Positions 4,362 to 61,120 of a stretch of 64,000 nucleotides of DNA are shown here, piece by piece. The position numbers and the translations under genes were made by a program. This DNA comes from Zymoseptoria tritici IPO323 (taxonomy: Eukaryota > Ascomycota > Dothideomycetes > Mycosphaerellales > Mycosphaerellaceae): positions 620,001 to 684,000 of the forward strand of contig NC_018218.1 in the NCBI RefSeq assembly GCF_000219625.1, read 5' to 3'. Below the pieces are notes generated by a model that had not been told where the DNA came from, made no database searches, and saw only the letters and a list, made by a program, of their open reading frames with translations. Within the stretch, counting starts at the first letter, position 1; each line of letters starts with the position of its first letter.

Positions 4362-5705
4362 TCAGCTATTGTCCAGCACTTCCTCATCGCACCCATGATC
4401 GTACTCCAAAAAGTGCTTGCGAGTCCGGAAGCCAGGGAAAACACGATGTCCAGCAACATGCGAGACTCCGGTGAAGTCGAAGTCATGATATCGTGTGCCT
4501 GTCACCAGAGCCTGGATCTCGTCGATATGGGGTCTGGCGGCCGGGTGTTCTAGCACGCAGAAGCCCTCGAAGTTGCACTCACCCAAGTTTGGAAAAGAGC
4601 ATTCAAGGAGCGTGTTCATGATCGCTTTCAAGAAAGAAGTCGCCAATCTCCCGCACCATGAGAAAAAGCTTTCTCGGTTGCGCATACTGTGGGTTCCGTA
4701 TCGCTCACTCCGAAGATTGTACAGGTAAAGCGACTCTCCGAAGATGATGGTCAGAGACTTGAGAGTGCTCGAAGCATTGCGAATCAGGCTTGCTGCTTGA
4801 CGGAACAACGTATAATAGTTGCGTATGTCGATCTCGCCATCAAAGGGCGAGACCTTTAGTCGTATGGTCGACAGCGAACCAGAAGTGGCACTCGAGAGCA
4901 CTCGCAGTGGAAACCACATGGGTCCTGGGAAAATCGCTGCAACGGACTGCTCTTGTCGTTCGAAAAGATCATCGTCGATAACGAGCTCTTCGTACACCGA
5001 GATGAGGCCTTGGTTTATATTCTTCGAAAAGTAGAAAGCTGTCCCTTGCTCAATGGGCCCGCCTCCAGGAAGAGCGCCTTCGTCATCCAGGGAGTCCAAC
5101 TTCAAGCTATGCAATTTGGAGGTATCGATCGAATCGAGAATCGCTCTGACCAGGCCACGGTGCATCCATCCGCAGAGACGAAGGTCTCTCACGCTAGGGA
5201 ACAGACATGGAGGACTCTGCCGTATCAGCTTGTCCTCCCATACATCGTGTATCGATGCCAGGTCCAGCGTCGTGACATTGATAATTGCGGAGAAAATGTT
5301 CCACGTTTGCCGATCAATTGGCAGGAGGGTCGGTTCAGCTTCGTCCTCTCTGTCAGTCCTCTTCGCCCCTACGTGTCCCCATACCAGCGTCCACGTGAAC
5401 GACTTAACATGCTTAGCCAGCGTAGGTCGGTCCGTAATCAGCCGAAGAAAGCTGCGCTGTCGAGAGACCAGGCTCGGAGGAGCAAGTTTTGCATGAAGCT
5501 GTGGATAAACGACCTTCGTTTCACCCCAGTCCATTTTCGTGAGGCGGCCTTCAACATTGTGGCAGCTCAAATCAACGATTTGAAGGAGGTACGGCTGTGA
5601 CAAATCATGCCAGGAACGGCAGACGAGACTGGTATTGAGGAGCGTGGCATGGTCATCGACAAGTTGCTCGAAGATATGCATCCATATCTCTGGAGTGTGG
5701 AGCAT
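4362..5705 (-). CDS. F-box domain protein
   Basis: Single-exon frame of 447 aa when started at the ATG at 5705. The protein opens directly with an F-box-like motif: LHTPEIWMHIFEQL, then a SLVCRSWHDLSQPYLL stretch at residues 2-50. F-box proteins link substrates to SCF ubiquitin ligases through Skp1; the substrate is unknown. The rest is leucine-rich, with repeated LRLCGW, LHSLKLDSL and STLKSLTII strings suggesting an irregular leucine-rich fold, common in fungal F-box proteins. The frame stays open upstream to 6128, but that extension is low-complexity, basic and unlike the family, so I prefer the internal ATG. A spliced 5' exon cannot be excluded. It is divergent from the secreted protein gene at 6217. 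Confidence 0.72.
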   Translation of the reverse strand: MLHTPEIWMHIFEQLVDDHATLLNTSLVCRSWHDLSQPYLLQIVDLSCHNVEGRLTKMDWGETKVVYPQLHAKLAPPSLVSRQRSFLRLITDRPTLAKHVKSFTWTLVWGHVGAKRTDREDEAEPTLLPIDRQTWNIFSAIINVTTLDLASIHDVWEDKLIRQSPPCLFPSVRDLRLCGWMHRGLVRAILDSIDTSKLHSLKLDSLDDEGALPGGGPIEQGTAFYFSKNINQGLISVYEELVIDDDLFERQEQSVAAIFPGPMWFPLRVLSSATSGSLSTIRLKVSPFDGEIDIRNYYTLFRQAASLIRNASSTLKSLTIIFGESLYLYNLRSERYGTHSMRNRESFFSWCGRLATSFLKAIMNTLLECSFPNLGECNFEGFCVLEHPAARPHIDEIQALVTGTRYHDFDFTGVSHVAGHRVFPGFRTRKHFLEYDHGCDEEVLDNS

Positions 5706-33918: not shown

Positions 33919-36900
33919 TCAAGCAAGATTGTCACTCCGATCAACCCACACATCCTCCAACTCCGCAAAGTTCTGAAAGTGAATAGGCCGATGCACATCG
34001 TCATAGAACCTCCTCGGCACACCAACTTGCACCCACACGCGACCCTTCTCACGCTCTCCGAAGCCACTGCCCATGAAGCTCCAGTTCCATCTCTCGTCTT
34101 CTGGTACAAGGAAGTAACCACGAATCTTGTCAGACAACAGCAGCTGACACTTCTCGCCGAAGCCGTTCTGCGGAGAGAAGCCGGCGGGTTGGTCGGAGCC
34201 GAGATCCTTGTTCTCTGCGCCCCATTGGTAGCCTTGAGGTGTAAGAGACCATGCGCTGAGCGAGACGGATCCGGGCGTGAAGTTGACAGTCATGGTCACG
34301 GTCTTGCGGTCCCAGGTCGGGTGTGCTGCCATGAGCTTCGCGTGCTGGGTGACGTCTTGAGCGGTCATGTACGTCGTCTCGTTGCCGGCGCTGGTGTGGA
34401 GGATACCAAGAGGCTCGAGACCGTTCAGCATCTCATTCTCCGGCAGACTGCGTGGCAGCTGAATGTCGCGAGTGCTGCCGACTTGAGGCACCATGACGAT
34501 ACACTTGATCTCCTTGACTTGCTTGTTGTCTGGAGGAGAAGACCCGTATAGGTATCCTGCAACCTGCACACGAAGATCGGCCACGGCGATGAATCGCTTG
34601 AGGATGTTCTTCGGCATGACGTATGTGAAGTGGTGCTCATCGTCGCGGATGTCCTCGGAAGAGATGTATATGTTGTTGGCGCGGGTGCGCAAATTGCTGG
34701 TCGCAATGGCACGGGTACGCCACTCGGTCTTGGATGCGAATGTGGCCTGCTCATAGGCCGTCGTGGTGGTCACGATCATGTCCTCGCCTTGAGCATTGAC
34801 CGTCTTGGTCGTGACGGCAGTCAATTGCTGTTGATCCTGCTGTTGCTTCTCGATCTCGGCGGCCTGTTGACGCTGCATGCTTGGTGCACTGATCTCCATT
34901 CCCAGGATGATGTCTCTGATCTCGGAGTTGGTGAGGGACGACGTGTTGACATTGTTCTTCTTTCCGTAGTCGTTCAAGATGAGATCACGCAACTGCACTT
35001 CGACCTTGACCCAGTCCTCATCTGAGAGAGTTGGCCAGATGTGGTGCTCCTGAGTGATGACGGTCTTGTCTGGTCGCAAGAGCAACTTGGTCTTGTCCTG
35101 GTTGACATGGAGTGCACGAAGGATCAAGATCAGACGAGAGAAGGCCGTGTAGGAGGAGATACTCTTCAACCACTCGTCGTAGAGGTTGAAGAGCACCATC
35201 TGAGGCTCAGTCGCACGCAGAATCATGTCTCCGAGTTTCTCGACCTTCATCGCAGCCTGGAATGGCAGCTGAAGTTCAGATGCGCGAATGCTGATGTTGG
35301 GGAAATCAAGCAAGTGCACCTCGAGCGGATCAAGAAGACCCTTTCGTGTGACGATCAACTGCTTCGGCTGCTCTTCAACGGGCAGCGATCGAATGAGCGC
35401 CGCCACTTCTTCAGCAGTCTTCCACTTCGCCAGTTGGCCGAGACGCTTCTGACCGGCCCAGACGCTCGTGTGAATGATCTTGAGGAAGAGTTGACCTGTG
35501 CGAGGATTGAAGATAAAGATGGCGCCGTTGATAGGCTTGGTCGTCAAATTGCCCTCGAACGTCTTGTGGATCGTCACTCGATAGACGTTGGTGTCGTCGA
35601 TGAAGAGTTGGATCTGGTTGCTGAACAGCTCGGAGTAGTTTTGGGAGTTGAGGAACTCTTGGTTGCTCTCCGAAGCGTACAGCTGAAGACCCTTGCGAAT
35701 ACGCTCACGCAGGACGTACAACGCGGGGTTGGCCTTCATGACCTTGGCCATGGCTTGCTGCACGAGCTGCTTGAGACCTGGGAAGTACTGTCCGTACGCA
35801 GAGTACAAGTTGTAGGCAAGATCGACACCAATCATGAGACCAGTGGCCGATGGGTAGATGGACATGCTGTCGGTTGTGTAGTCCAGGTACTTGGCACGCA
35901 CATATCGCTCGATGTCGTGCGAGTCGTAATCTCCGTATCTGAGCTGCACATCGACCCAGAACTTGTTGGTCGAGGTCAGGCCCATGTTGTCCTTCGTATC
36001 GTAGAGCAAGCTGGGATTGCTGACACTCCACTTGTGCGAGGCGAAGAGGAGGATATCGGCGCAAGAAGAATTCATCTTGTACGACTTTCTGGGATGGATC
36101 GTCTCCTTCTGCACAGTCTCGATGCCAAGCGCTTCGAGTTCCTGGTCAAACACCTGGCACAGATCCATCACGACGGACTCGTGGATCTTCTGCCACAGAT
36201 GGGCACGGAAGATTTGGATGAGAGAGATCTTCAATGTCGGAATCTTGCCGTGGAGGAAGATGCCAGTCAGATCAAGCTGGACCTGGAAACCAACGTAGAC
36301 ATTGGCACGGTTGATGGTCGGACTCCACCAGAGCGTGAAGCGACGGTTGGGAATCTGGTTGAGACCCGAGCGTTGGGCGTTCGTGAGCTAAACAGAAGGG
36401 CAGAAGGGTTAGCGATAGTTCGGACAGGGTATAAGGACAGACCGAGACCTGCTGGCATAGCCCGAGAGATAATCTCGGACAGCTTGCAGGCGTTCACCCC
36501 TTCAATTTTGACTTGCCTTCTTGAACTTCATGCTCTCTTCAAAGCCAGATGCTTTCTCCCCTATAGATTGGTCAGTATTGGCACAGTCATGGTTCGAAAA
36601 AGCGAGTCACTTACAGAAGAGGCCCTCCCAGCTCGGAAAAGCAGTCGCTTTGAACACTATGAATTGGTCAGTATTGGCACAGTCATGGTTCGAAAAAGCG
36701 AGTCACTTACAGGTATGCTCTAGAATGGTCTCCACACCGCCGAGGGCTTGAATCACATCCGTACGGTAAGCCTACAGAAAGGTTAGTACGATGGTAACAC
36801 AGCAAGCGTGGCAAGAACTTTGCTTACATTGAGTTGCCAGAGTTTTCCGTCATGTCGCTGTGAAGTCCACCAAAAGGGATTGCTCTTCATGTGCTGGTAA

Positions 36901-39900
36901 AGCTTGAACTCGGTCCGGGCTCGGAAACCCTTGTCGAACGACAACGTGGAGCGATCCTTTTGGAACAAGGTGTTGATACGCGGCAGACCACGATCCCAAG
37001 AGTCCTCGAGATCTTCCAGCGTAAGCCGTCGGTTCTGCTGATTAGCTTCAAGGCGCTTCTGGGAATATTCCGTCCACACACGCTGGGAGTCGATGAACTC
37101 GGCCTCCCACGGAATGATATATCGGAAGATGTTGGGGATGAGAGTCTCTTCGTCATGGCTCATACCAGCGCGGAAATGGGAAACACCGCTGTCGGTCTGC
37201 TTGCTCCATCGCTTGTCGGAAGCTGGGATGAGAATGTGGGATCCGGAAATCATGCCGAGACCACCCAATTCTTTGGGCGTATAGAACACGGCAGGAGGGA
37301 AACGGGAAGGCATCTTGGAGTTCAGACCGATCTTGACACGAGTCTGGATCTTGGTCTCGCACTTGACGATCGTGTCCAACAGGTTGACGGTGCTGACGGC
37401 GGCTTCACGATAGTAGGTGAAGAGAGCGATCAGGGTCGTATTCCACTTGTTCGCGATCTTGGTGAAGGTCGTGCTGCCAGAGCTCATCAGGATCTGACGA
37501 ATGCGGTTGTTGAACTTGGCGATGTCATCTTCGGTGACTTGGAGGAAAGCGTGTGCTGTCCGCTCCTTGGTCTGGTTGTCCACAAGCGCCCAGACGGAGT
37601 CCTTGGTGGGGAATTCGTCGTTCAGGTTCCTGGACTTTGGTAGAATGCGAACCTCGAAACCGTTCATAGCGAAAAGCAAGTTCGGGTTGTCACGACTGTA
37701 GACACTTGCGAAGGTATCATCCCACTCGACCGTGGTGATGCTGCGCGGCAAGCGGTTCTTCATATCCCAGAAGACGGCCCGTCCGAGGTTGACATCGTGC
37801 CTCATGAGCCTCATGCGCGAGTCGCGAGGCCAACACTTCTTGTTCTTGTAGCCGATGACATTTTCGAAGTTGGGATCAGGCTGCTCAGTGAGGAAGCGCT
37901 GGATGAGATCTCTTGACTCGTCCGCGCTGAAGCGGAAGAAGACCCAGATCTTGTCGATGTAACGAGTGTACAGTCTGATTGGGTGGCGAGTCTCTGTCGC
38001 TCGATCGCGGAATTGCAAGAAGTCGTTGGGAGCATTGGGCGGACCGGCCATGTCTGAGGCACGTTGTAGACCAAGCAACAGCAGATCAATAATCAAACCG
38101 TAGTATTGGAATACGAAGGCGCTGAACTGCAGACCACGGATCATACCATATGCGTTGGTGTGGTTCATGTCCTTGTAGTTGAGCTGCACATTGTTCTTGC
38201 TGGAGATGTAATCTGCCAAGTTGTGGTCCATGATCAGACGGAGCAGTCTGTTGAGCAGAGTGATGTCCATCTTCTCGTAGACCTTGTCGAGTCTGGTCTC
38301 GATCATGACGTTGCATTCTCCCTCATCAATACCCCACACGTTCGAGAGGTTGTTGATTCCCTGAGCCCACTTGTAGGTGAGAAGTGGTGGCACCTCAGAA
38401 TCGGAGGGCTTGATCCATGCTGGGAAAAGCTTGCGCTGATCGGCTTGGTACCACAGATACTGGTCGAGGTATGCGTCCGTAATCTTCTCAATTGGCTCAA
38501 TGTCGTAGACTGGGTTGATGGTGCTGTAATTGTCGTTCATATCGATTCCGACCTCCTTGAAGGAGCGCTGCGTGAGTAGGAAACGCTTAATGCGGGCGAG
38601 CGTTGTGCCAGGGCTGTCGTATGCCTGCTCAATGAGCGCGAGCTCTTCACGCTGGCTCTGGTTGAGACGTCCCTTCACAGAATAGGCCTCCCGAAGTCTC
38701 TCAAGTGCCAAGATGAGAATCTTGGTATCGTGCTTGTAGCTGACAGATGGAAAGGGAATCGGCTGGAACTTGCGGCTCTCAAGCCAGTGCACCGCCGTGG
38801 TGAAGATCGCGACACCTTCTTCGGTGCTGACGTACGGACCGTCCTTGAGGTAGTTGTGTTGACGCTCCTGCTCAGCCTTCAACCACAGTCGAGTCAGACG
38901 TCCGAGGTTCTTCTTCGCCACAGTCTTGTCGACTGTAGCGCCTCTCCTGATGCGCTCCCGGTTGTAGTGTGCAACAGACACCCACCAGTCGGCCTTGGAC
39001 TTCACATATCGGAGGATAATATCCTCGATAGGCTTAGGTAGACCTGGCACCTTCCATGGGATGTTCGACTTCCAGCATCGCCATGCCTCGGACAGATGCT
39101 GCAACACGGTGTTGACCTTGCTCTGCTTGATACCTTCGGGCATCATGTCCATGAGATCCGCCATGACGGAGGCACGGAGTTCAAGATCGAAGTGAGACTC
39201 GACACGCTGCTTGGTAACAGTCTTGGCTACACCCTTTGAGTGACGACCCTCGAACTGTCTGCTGAGCAAGTTGCCCAGCCAGCGCTCCAGAAGTGGGATG
39301 ATTCCGCGGAGGAAGAAGAGCCACACTCGCCATGCAGGCGCCCAGAAACCACAGCCTGGTCCCTTGCCGACTGGCCCGGAGTTGAAGCGGTAGTAAATCA
39401 AATGCTTCAAATCCTTGCAGGATCGAATCTGATGCATCAACTTGTATTTGTAGCGGTACATACCGGTCAGTTGACCGACGTGGTTGAAGGCGTAGAGAAT
39501 GCCGTCTGCGAGCTGGAAGGCATCGATATTGCCCAGGCGATATTGAACTTGAGCATCCACGATGAGCTTCGTCAGGCGAAGAATCTCACGCATAAGATGG
39601 AAGGCGTTTCCGAATCTGCTCTTCTTCCGCTCCTTGGTCGTCAACGTCTTGATGGGCTTCAAGTTGAAGTTGTAATCGAGATGGAGGTAGGTGAGATTCT
39701 TCCTGTGGATCAACAGGTTCAACATGTTGAAACCTTGACGACACACTTGAAGACCAGCCTCGACCCAGTCGATGGTGGTCTGCTGGAAGAACTTGGTGCT
39801 CTTGAGACTTCTGCACAAGTTCTGTTTGTTTTGCGCCTTTGGAGGCTTCTTGTGCAGCTCATTCAAGACGTACGTCTTCAGGAGTTTTTGGTAAGACACC

Positions 39901-41312
39901 CGCACCTTCACAGGCTGGCCTTGAGGAACGTGCTCGAGGTACCACTGCTTGACAAGCGGCACATCTTGCGCTCGCACCATCTTTCCAGATCTCCGGTCGA
40001 ATGGGTATGGCGCCCACCACAAAGCAATGGCAGAAGCTGTGTCGTCGTTGTAGAGTTCTTCGTCCTCCAAGAAAGGCTCGACTTCTTTGGGCAGACTGAA
40101 ACCACCTTCCTCCTCATCCGCCTCCTCATTGTTCCCGGCGCCAAAGATCTCATCCTCGAGACTGACCGACAAGTTCTTGGGGGCAACAGATCTTGAAGAG
40201 ATTGGGTTGATGACGGGGTCGAAGTAGAATGGTGGAAGGTTGGGGTCCTCGGTCTTGACATAGACCGTCTGTGGGGAGCTGTACTTGCCGAGCTTTACGC
40301 TGCGAGGCAAGCTGTTGTACAAGAATGGGAATGCGACGCGGTACTCAGTCCGGATCGGAGCACGGAAGATGATGCGGTCGATGGCATTGAATTCACCAAA
40401 GTCCTCATCGTTCGGATCGATGTCTTTGTACAAAGGCTCAAAGCGAGGGCCACCGGGAATGGCGACGTTGAGCGCTTTTGCTGTGGCGAAGGCGGGCATC
40501 TCGAATAGGTGAAAGTAGTTCTGATCGGTGATGTCTGACAAGAGGGGATTGCTGAGACGGTGCAGGGTGGCCATCTGCTGAATCGTCATGTTCCACTCCT
40601 TGTAGCTTGGTCCATTGACGTGGCTGGTATCCGCCAAAGGTCTCGGCTCGTAGAACCACTCGAAAACTGGTCCGTCTTCATCCTCGTCCAGCTCCATCTG
40701 AATCGGCTCAAGCGGCTCCACATCCTCAATGTTTTCACTCCATGAGAGTGGCGGCTCCTCATCGTCAAAGGGCGGGAATCGCATTCGCTTGAAATGTCTC
40801 CGATCGCTCTTCTCTCGCCTCATCACCACCCACATGGTCGCCCATTGCGCGTGGAACACCGGCTCGATGACTCGTGGAATCTCGTTGACCAGTGTCAGGC
40901 AGCCATTGACGTGGTACAGGACTTTCACTTCTCGAGCACTCTCCCACGGCATAGGCATGTTCTCCAATAGCTTCAGAACGGCATGCGGCATGAACTTCAA
41001 TGCACCGAGATAGCTTCTCTTGTCGGCACTGAACTTCTTCTGAGAAACATCTCCAATATCCTTGACGATTTTCCGCAGATGCTCAGGCGGCATGTCTGCC
41101 TTCTGCGTCTCCACAAAACCACCCTTGCGCTTCTCCCCAAAGCGCTGCTTCTGCTGTCGTATCCATTTCCGCTTCTTGTCTTGCAGCTTCGCCGCTTGAG
41201 GATCTGCAGACGGATTGTATCCAGGTGGTGGAGGCGGTGCGGATAATCCTGGCGGCGCACCTGGGGGAGGTGGTGGTGCCCAACCAGGCGGTGGAGGTGG
41301 TCGTCCCGCCAT
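33919..41312 (-). CDS. PRP8: Pre-mRNA-processing-splicing factor 8 (Prp8), 5 exons
   Basis: Core U5 snRNP protein that holds the spliceosome's catalytic RNA. Exons: 41312-36828, 36771-36711, 36656-36615, 36560-36517 and 36387-33919; they give 2366 aa, normal for the family. The start [11 protein letters not shown] and Pro-rich leader are typical. Seen in order: N-terminal Prp8 domain, PROCN and RRM-like segments, U5/U6-contact regions, RNase H-like domain ([36 protein letters not shown]) and C-terminal Jab1/MPN domain ([25 protein letters not shown]). Three tiny exons of 61, 42 and 44 nt are clustered after KLWQLN. Their introns are 56 nt, 54 nt, 54 nt and 129 nt. The two 54-nt introns are near-identical, and the 129-nt one uses a GC donor. 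No intein is inserted. Divergent from RPL34. Confidence 0.97.
36388..36516 (-). other. PRP8 intron 4, non-canonical GC-AG
   Basis: 129-nt intron between MKFKK and [11 protein letters not shown]. The donor is AAG|GCAAGT and the acceptor CTGTTTAG|CTC. No GT donor near this point keeps the conserved protein frame; reading on from the exon gives ASQN and a stop. GC-AG introns make up about 1% in fungi and usually have an otherwise perfect donor, as here. Confidence 0.85.
36561..36614 (-). repeat. Introner-like intron copy B (PRP8 intron 3)
   Basis: 54-nt phase 1 intron, donor T|GTAAGTGACTCGC, branch region ATACTGACC, acceptor ATCTATAG|GG. It differs from copy A at two positions near the acceptor only. 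It splits the Trp codon of [15 protein letters not shown]. The exons on either side are unrelated to those of copy A, so similarity stops at the splice sites. Confidence 0.9.
36657..36710 (-). repeat. Introner-like intron copy A (PRP8 intron 2)
   Basis: 54-nt phase 1 intron, donor T|GTAAGTGACTCGC, branch region ATACTGACC, acceptor ATTCATAG|TG. 52 of 54 bases match copy B, which lies 42 nt downstream in the gene. It splits the Leu codon of [16 protein letters not shown]. Near-identical multicopy introns of this size are known as introner-like elements in Dothideomycetes. Confidence 0.9.
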
Positions 41313-59299: not shown

Positions 59300-60003
59300 C
59301 GCTCGTGGCCATATCACCTTTGGCGGTTTCCAAATCGAGCCGACGTCGGGCTTCGCTTCTCGCCAGGACGGACGTATGGGACGTCAGCCTGGATGGTCGG
59401 CGCGGCGGCGACATTGACACAACCAGAGACAATCGCAGTCTTGCTGGTGAGGGTGAAGTTCTTGATGGTAGTGGGCAAAGCCTCACGGACCTTGGCCTGC
59501 AACCAGAGGCGATGTATGGTACATCAGCTGGGACGGTCGGAGCGGCGGCGCCGACATCGACTTCCACGTTCTCCTGGACACGCTTGCCGTCTTCGAAGTG
59601 CGTGACCTTGATCTCAGGCTGGGCCGCGGGCTCCGCATTTCGTGGCGGATCGAGTCAACCTTCACGTGCTGGCCCAACTTCTGCGCCAACTTTGCCGGCT
59701 CCTTATAGGCCTCCGCCCACCCCTCAGGCAGCTTCCTCCGGAGAGGGGTCGCTGTGAGTCCTTCCTCGGGGCGGACGGTGTGCTTGAGGGCGGTGGTGAA
59801 CTGAGTGCTGCTGCCGTGTATGCTGGCCGAGGGCAGGCCCAATTTCTGCGCCAACTTTGCCAGCTCCTTACACGCCTCCGCCCACCCCTCAGGCAGCTTC
59901 CTCCGGAGAGGGGTCGCTGTGAGTCCTTCATCGGGGCGGACGGAGTCGTGAAGAGTGACCATTCCGTCCTTCTCGTCCATTGCTCCAGATCGCACACGAC
60001 GGA
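59300..60003 (-). pseudogene. Decayed coding-like DNA with duplicated block
   Basis: Minus-strand translation shows protein-like fragments in changing frames: [57 protein letters not shown], and two versions of a short motif ([16 protein letters not shown] and VNVAAAPTIQADVPY). Frame changes between them are not explained by good introns. I do not recognise the protein. Either a broken gene, or a multi-exon gene I cannot resolve by eye. Confidence 0.4.
59671..59946. repeat. Direct repeat of ~111 bp, 165 bp apart
   Basis: Blocks 59671-59781 and 59836-59946 are near-identical, with a handful of substitutions. On the minus strand both read the same segment ([19 protein letters not shown]), so the duplication covers coding-like sequence. 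Confidence 0.85.
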
Positions 60004-60013
60004 GCTCTTGCAT

Positions 60014-60700
60014 ATGTCCTCCCACTCCCAAACACCATCGACCGGGCCTTGAACTGGGGAGCTCAGCGTCCCACGGCAATAAATCTTTGCCGTGTCGACT
60101 CCCACACACCACACCCGATTGGGCCTTGAAATGGGAGCTAAGCGTACCCACGGCAATGATGCACGTGTCGACTCCCGCACACACTCGACCGGCACGCTCT
60201 TGAGGACTTTCTTCTGGCTCTTGTCGTCGGCCAATGGGTTCGCGAAAGGTACCAACGCGGCGAGAGGAATCGCGAGGACAGTCTTCTTGTCGTCGCAGTT
60301 CTCAACGTCTTCAACGCCCGGGTGGACGAGGAGCTACGCGTACCCACGGCAATATCATTCTGCACGTGTCGACTCCCACACCAGTGTTGTAGCGAATCTC
60401 TCCTTCGCCGCGCCAGAAAGTTTTGAACGCCCCTGAGGACGGGGGAGCTACGCGTCCCACGGCAATGATGCGCCGTGTCGACTCCCACACCAGTGTTGTA
60501 GTGAGTCTCTCCTTCGCCACGCCGGAGAGTCTTGAACGCCCTTGAGGATGAGGGAGCTGCGCGTCCCACGGCAATGATGCGCCGTGTCGACTCCCACACA
60601 TGTCTTGTATCGGATCTCTTCTTCGTCGTCGCCGGGAAGTCTTGAACGCCCAAAAGGACGAGGAGCTAAGCGTACCCACGGAATGTTACCTCGTGTCGGC
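60014..60700. repeat. Tandem array around GTGTCGACTCCCACA (109-bp units)
   Basis: Three consecutive units of exactly 109 bp begin at 60365, 60474 and 60583, with a fourth start at 60692 that has one change (GTGTCGGCTCCCA). Each unit has a constant head CGTGTCGACTCCCACA, a diverged middle, and a constant tail (GGAGCT, CGCGT, CCCACGGCAATGATG). Related heads at 60091 and 60164 and a weaker one near 60014 have shorter spacing (73-77 bp). 60200-60340 is a non-repeat insert that reads as protein on the minus strand. Confidence 0.85.
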
Positions 60701-61120
60701 TCCCATACACCAATGTCCAATTTCTTCGCGAGATGGTGTCGCCGAAAGAACACTTTCGATTGCCGATCTCATGAGCGTCAGGCCGACACTCCACATATTG
60801 CCCTCGACCGTATAGGGGCTTCCATGTATCCGCTCAGAAGCCATGTGCGTACCATTTCCCACAAACGTGTCGGCAACCTTGTTCTCGAGCTCGGAAGATA
60901 CACCGAAGTCACAAAGCTTGATCTGGCTCTTGCTGTTGACAACCACATTGGATGGCTTGATGTCGCGGTGCATGATCCGATGTGCGTGGTATAGGTACTT
61001 CAAGCCGCCGAGGATGGCTTGCAGGAGGCGGTTCTGCATGACCTCACGGACGATGCCGTTATGTTGGGCGTTGGTCAGGGTCACCCCGAGAGTGGCGGAG
61101 CTGATGGACTGGCAGTGACG
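60686..61120 (-). pseudogene. Truncated MAP kinase kinase-like fragment
   Basis: Minus-strand frame showing kinase subdomains VIb-IX: LLQAILGGLKYLYHAHRIMH then RDIKPSNVVVNS (catalytic loop intact), IKLCDFGVSSELENKVADTF (DFG intact), then VGNGTHMASERIHGSPYTVE, where functional MAPKKs have a GT-x-YMAPERI segment. Here the conserved Tyr-Met-Ala-Pro-Glu has become HMASE, and the following SDVWS has become GNMWS. The text then runs into the repeat array and stops (GADTR). Upstream there is no N-lobe in frame, no P-loop and no ATG. It is therefore a broken, duplicated C-terminal kinase piece, probably a partial copy of a MAPKK gene elsewhere in the genome. Confidence 0.7.

Follow-up and report, generated by a model that had tools for sequence, protein, structure and literature searches.

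Two neighboring introns of the PRP8 gene of Zymoseptoria tritici IPO323, here called B and C, are each 54 nt long and identical at 52 of 54 bases. We consider them copies of one ordinary short intron known from a single locus, with C likely copied 42 coding nt upstream, recently and via RNA, a reading to which we assign a probability of roughly 0.55. RNA-mediated transposition is the leading, if unproven, mechanism, ahead of DNA-templated repair. Both copies belong to a cluster of four introns surrounding the empty Prp8-a intein site.

Structure of the PRP8 gene and its introns

The stretch of DNA analyzed (the window, 64,000 nt) corresponds to positions 620001-684000 of contig C1 in a genome assembly of 39,686,251 bp and 21 contigs. 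Joining the five PRP8 exons, with introns A-D removed, gave a coding sequence without internal stop (Table 1). The product contains seven Prp8-type Pfam domains (PRO8NT, PROCN, RRM_4, U5_2-snRNA_bdg, U6-snRNA_bdg, PRP8_domainIV and PROCT), besides a marginal JAB/MPN match. The donor of intron D is of the GC-AG type, and the close protein relatives P0176 and P0177 read through its position. A 560-aa open frame, probably a shadow ORF, runs antisense to PRP8 (window 35041-36723, plus strand) and spans introns B and C.

Table 1. Features of the PRP8 locus, in window positions
Feature	Position	Strand	Description
PRP8 gene	33919..41312	minus	2366 aa, 7101-nt CDS, four introns; single open frame after exon joining
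Intron A	36827-36772	minus	56 nt, GTAAGC...GTAG, phase 0 after aa 1495; borders from frame and splice consensus
Intron B	36710-36657	minus	54 nt, phase 1, interrupting codon 1516 after its first base; probably the new copy
Branch-site-like ACTGAC of intron B	36667..36672	minus	from sequence
42-nt exon between B and C	36615..36656	minus	codes for conserved 14-residue stretch
Intron C	36614-36561	minus	54 nt, phase 1, interrupting codon 1530 after its first base; probably the source copy
Branch-site-like ACTGAC of intron C	36571..36576	minus	from sequence
Empty Prp8-a intein site	36549..36550	minus	between A1533 (codon ends 36550) and S1534 (codon starts 36549)
Intron D	36516-36388	minus	129 nt, GC-AG, phase 0 after aa 1544; borders from frame

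Introns B and C are near-identical

The initial annotation, which reported a pair of near-identical introns here, described their coordinates, length and degree of match correctly. Both introns run from GTAAGT to TAG, and their sole differences are at the adjacent intron positions 49-50 (TC in B, CT in C). With the GTAAGT and TAG consensus set aside, the introns agree at 43 of 45 positions, for which the chance probability is ~5.5e-23 given the introns' own base composition. This bears out the earlier view that both come from one recent source; with differences confined to one pair of adjacent bases, the copying would be recent. The start-to-start spacing is 96 bp. Identity begins 2 nt 5' of the donor, both upstream exons finishing in CT; apart from this CT the flanks are unrelated, as had also been noted for the neighboring exons. 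No microhomology was seen at the 3' junction.

Both introns interrupt the frame in phase 1 after a T, at cumulative CDS nt 4546 (B) and 4588 (C), again in agreement with the initial annotation. They carry canonical splice signals (GTAAGT, ACTGAC and TAG, of which we take ACTGAC to be branch-site-like), lie in sense orientation in the gene, and restore the frame on removal. The pair of introns in PRP8 with a 42-nt exon between them holds up, with an intact spliced frame of 2366 aa. The 14 residues encoded by this exon are collinear with Prp8 of solved structures and conserved there, so the exon is not itself a duplicate. The restored frame and the conserved protein suggest that both introns are spliced in vivo.

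Read from the sequence, retention of either intron would introduce TGA as the third codon, and splicing from the B donor directly to the C acceptor would skip the 42-nt exon, with in-frame loss of 14 residues. Mis-splicing of B or C would therefore be consequential for Prp8; a regulatory role, such as the self-limiting feedback suggested earlier, would be a proposal only.

Intron C is probably the source

The comparison of PRP8 intron positions among relatives that the initial annotation had called for was made with proteins, and came out in part: one putative intron was found at C, and none exactly at B. Three protein searches (best 120 of 777, 489 and 702 matches) yielded 248 different proteins. 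The B site is read across by 180 of these (181 with a looser motif that admits the scrambled P0163); P0146 ends one codon short of the site, and the rest do not show the stretch. None of the 248 proteins, many of which are spliced models, ends exactly at B. Reading through B does not always mean that the intron is absent, because many models are annotated and perhaps spliced.

P0130, an NCBI gene model from Aureobasidium subglaciale, reads ...SWEGLF|CKL and ends soon afterwards, as an unspliced intron exactly at C would predict. No other among the 248 proteins has this sequence at C, and the position in P0130 was read by hand. The A. melanogenum models P0010, P0016 and P0017 read across C; as annotated models, they too may be spliced. 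Because P0130 fits an intron at C and none was seen exactly at B, C is probably the source and B the copy, as judged from proteins and one hand-read model. The P0130 match could alternatively represent parallel gain in a hot region.

Possible routes of intron copying

In the preferred reading, excised intron C, in or near the spliceosome, would insert by reverse splicing into PRP8 RNA near its own junction. The intron-bearing RNA would then be reverse transcribed, and a short cDNA tract would recombine into the PRP8 locus, adding B and leaving A and C in place. With donor, branch site and acceptor present in each copy, B and C would be spliced out and Prp8 left unchanged. An intron-based process fits because the copied segment coincides with the splice sites at either end, bar the 5' CT, and RNA-mediated local transposition explains these exact borders without extra assumptions. 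Intron transposition would place a copy of an existing intron at a formerly intronless position; the copy is evident, and in the proteins collected no intron was seen exactly at B. Intron transposition is listed for Mycosphaerella (PMC3443670; this and the other articles below are cited from excerpts).

Three points weigh against the RNA route. The cDNA tract would have to be very short, because A and C were kept and the exons beside B are 61 and 42 nt; arms of at most 61 and at most 42 nt are short for homologous recombination, unless intron A arose later or part of the RNA remained unspliced. Reverse splicing is described as shown only in a mutant background, and into the original site (PMC3443670). 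Finally, a DNA copying tract could have had its edge at the two adjacent differences near the 3' end.

A route through DNA would account for the closeness of B and C. Here a break at the B site would have been repaired by templated insertion copying intron C from ~100 bp away, selection in an essential and conserved gene keeping only an insert whose splice borders were exact. The 96-bp distance, the 2-nt CT common to both 5' junctions and the failure to find another genomic copy fit such an event, and the repair of double-strand breaks has been proposed as a way of gaining introns (PMC3443670). However, both ends of the insert must meet the splice borders by chance and selection, with no microhomology at the 3' junction, and we regard templated repair as unlikely, while the most credible of the alternatives.

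Gene conversion between two older, unrelated introns would produce the same likeness, and the identity, which starts 2 nt into the exon and lasts to position 48 with differences only beside the 3' end, does resemble a conversion tract with its edge. Unrelated introns, however, would offer little homology for conversion to start, and an older intron exactly at B finds no counterpart in the protein collection; we consider this origin quite improbable.

Search for further copies

The initial annotation had classed B and C as introner-like elements, an assignment that a genome-wide copy count did not sustain. Scans of the 39.7-Mb genome with three intron pieces (22, 22 and 32 nt, up to 3 mismatches each) found only B and C and no third copy, and blastn with the 162-bp B/C pair at E up to 10 returned one candidate, the pair itself. 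As a control, another short repeat of 175 bp (L026:4588-4762) gave 40 scored copies among 165 candidates; sensitivity for a 54-nt element may be lower because this query is longer, and a strongly diverged intron family could escape both kinds of search. The control repeat itself (C1:1154588-1154762) is an element of ~170 bp present on many contigs and both strands, and looks like a small non-autonomous repeat.

The 13-nt 5' end of the intron has a third genomic match on contig C3, which was rejected as the sequence diverges past the 13-mer; in 2 x 39.7 Mb a 13-mer should match about once by chance. Of the 23 short repeat pairs listed from a 264-kb sample (the window and 200 kb of C1), one is B/C, and no second near-identical intron pair was recognized by eye. 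Separately, window positions 59668-60716 contain internal direct repeats, including a 114-bp pair of 94% identity and a 300-bp pair of 82% identity at an offset of 113 bp.

Introner-like elements have a stable predicted RNA structure. For B and C, folding against shuffled sequences gave z values of +1.35 and +1.27 for the introns alone and +0.23 and +2.11 with flanks, each less stable than the shuffle mean. Introner-like elements are also described as having hundreds of near-identical copies and as long relative to ordinary introns of 50-55 bp (PMC4457414), and at 54 nt B and C have the length of the latter. Set against these traits, the short length and two copies favor copying of an intron within a gene over membership of an introner family. 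Family membership, with other copies lost or too diverged in this genome, would suit the canonical splice signals and sense insertion in a gene; such families are described in Z. tritici itself, and element pairs 145-626 bp apart occur in single genes of Passalora (PMC4457414). Given the absence of a third copy within the mismatch and blastn limits above, the length and the lack of a stable fold, we place little credence in it.

Tandem duplication of a 96-bp intron-plus-exon unit, to which the regular spacing might point, can be dismissed, since the exons are unrelated, no duplicated exonic segment flanks or forms an intron, and the protein has no repeated stretch.

Introns surround the empty Prp8-a intein site

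Beyond what the initial annotation had recognized, introns A and D lie in the same cluster as B and C, and the cluster surrounds the Prp8-a intein site. The site falls at 1533|1534 in all 12 intein-bearing homologs among those listed (P0054-P0060, P0062-P0066). Along the CDS, introns C, B and A lie 11, 53 and 114 nt upstream of it and intron D 33 nt downstream, so that all four fall within 147 nt of the 7101-nt CDS (~3.5e-5 for four random positions). The site has been assigned to the 1585 loop, near the catalytic center (PMC6805012). P0176, 96% identical over residues 1534-2366, carries an intein with a homing-endonuclease domain; its frame starts ...TTLQ|EKA, placing a putative intron end at residue 1530|1531.

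Metagenome proteins (lgn, jgi and ena entries) were taken to be unspliced ORF calls that stop in introns. From the best 120 of 489 matches, 35 such ORFs were picked by hand and the distant P0161 and P0175 dropped, leaving 33. Seventeen of these stop between residues 1526 and 1545, three at 1481 and the other 13 elsewhere in 1496-1751. The tails of 12 of the 17 fit a GT donor, at 10 distinct positions (P0155 and P0158 being ambiguous), and those of the other five (P0134, P0136, P0138, P0141 and P0150) do not. Further positions read by hand were 1528.33 (P0139), 1530.0 (P0176), 1529.33 (P0130) and 1533.67 (P0148), P0130 and P0148 being NCBI models. The binomial value of 7e-12 for the cluster of ORF ends is not a valid probability, because the ORFs share ancestry and their selection involved length limits and choice by hand.

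These ORF fragments suggest that introns occupy some ten different positions in a 20-codon stretch around the Prp8-a site. An intron just downstream of the site had been noted previously, in some species with and without inteins (PMC1508164); to judge from the excerpted account, the addition made here is that many different positions, on both sides of the site, appear to be in use.

Several other observations concern this part of Prp8. A second apparent intron cluster (P0123-P0126, P0133, P0142 and P0143) lies at residues 1563-1571, ~30 codons downstream of the intein site. The ORFs ending at 1481 (P0156, P0159 and P0171, two of them 95% identical to Prp8 here) appear to be exon-1 ORFs and suggest an intron at 1480.67 instead of A. 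In P0172, a distant Prp8 fragment (74% identical), an insert at K1532-A1533 looks like an in-frame unspliced intron, a position that may also apply to P0147. No PRP8 DNA of relatives was found in the viral contigs searched. A eukaryote-type Prp8 fragment in the Rickettsiaceae-binned contig JALZUG010000054.1 (L031:2904-3494) is probably contamination.

Intron gain and the homing endonuclease

We hypothesized that the intron cluster is causally tied to the homing endonuclease. Repeated cuts at the Prp8-a homing site would drive local intron gain, break repair creating or copying introns there, and the introns would serve as escape alleles. This idea is a long shot. If it is true, such an escape allele would come at almost no cost: an intron within the long recognition sequence would break the DNA target and leave the invariant protein untouched, and the B/C pair and the many intron positions near the site would be traces of homing conflict. 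PMC3229294 deals with escape alleles at homing sites and with what it costs to alter a conserved motif; its excerpts make no mention of introns as such alleles. A link between homing sites and intron gain was not found stated in the titles and abstract openings among the literature matches listed, which is not proof of its absence.

The notion that introns simply guard against the intein was considered and found no support: P0127, P0139, P0151 and P0176 appear to carry both intein and neighboring intron. By our hand count from the tables of PMC1508164, 5 of 16 Pezizomycotina species with inteins and 6 of 15 without have the downstream intron, four entries marked '?' being left out. Pointing the other way, the four intein-bearing ORFs among the 33 (P0062, P0075, P0135 and P0143) all end past 1545, a comparison biased by the length limits of the protein searches. 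The second cluster of apparent ORF ends, at about 1563-1571, would argue against the intein as cause; we know of no intein site at these residues. In other host proteins, inteins are reported to prefer conserved sites and spliceosomal introns not to do so (PMC2814812).

Relation to known systems and implications

Gain by copying an existing intron has been described in the same fungal group, as intron transposition in Mycosphaerella (Torriani et al. 2011, via PMC3443670 and PMC4457414). B and C differ in being a single pair in one gene, PRP8, beside an intein site, with no wider family found. Duplication of an intron within the same gene is also known from Z. tritici (PMC4457414), where duplication types other than introner-like elements, including tandem ones within a gene, make up <1% of single intron gains; as far as the brief descriptions allow comparison, the B/C repeat is distinguished by excluding the exon. 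Introner-like elements of Dothideomycetes resemble B and C as near-identical introns with full splice signals, with same-gene pairs in Passalora (PMC4457414), whereas here two copies of 54 nt without a stable fold were found. As for the intein site, the intron recorded just downstream of Prp8-a, with and without inteins (Butler et al. 2006, PMC1508164, Tables 1 and 4), contrasts with introns on both sides in Z. tritici, including a copied pair, and with the many positions suggested by the metagenome fragments.

With B and C within 150 bp in one gene, population sequences could show the order of gain, and joint change of A, C or D with B in populations could separate the RNA from the DNA routes. 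In an essential gene, introns crowding a known homing-endonuclease site offer a way to test whether natural homing drives and intron gain are connected.
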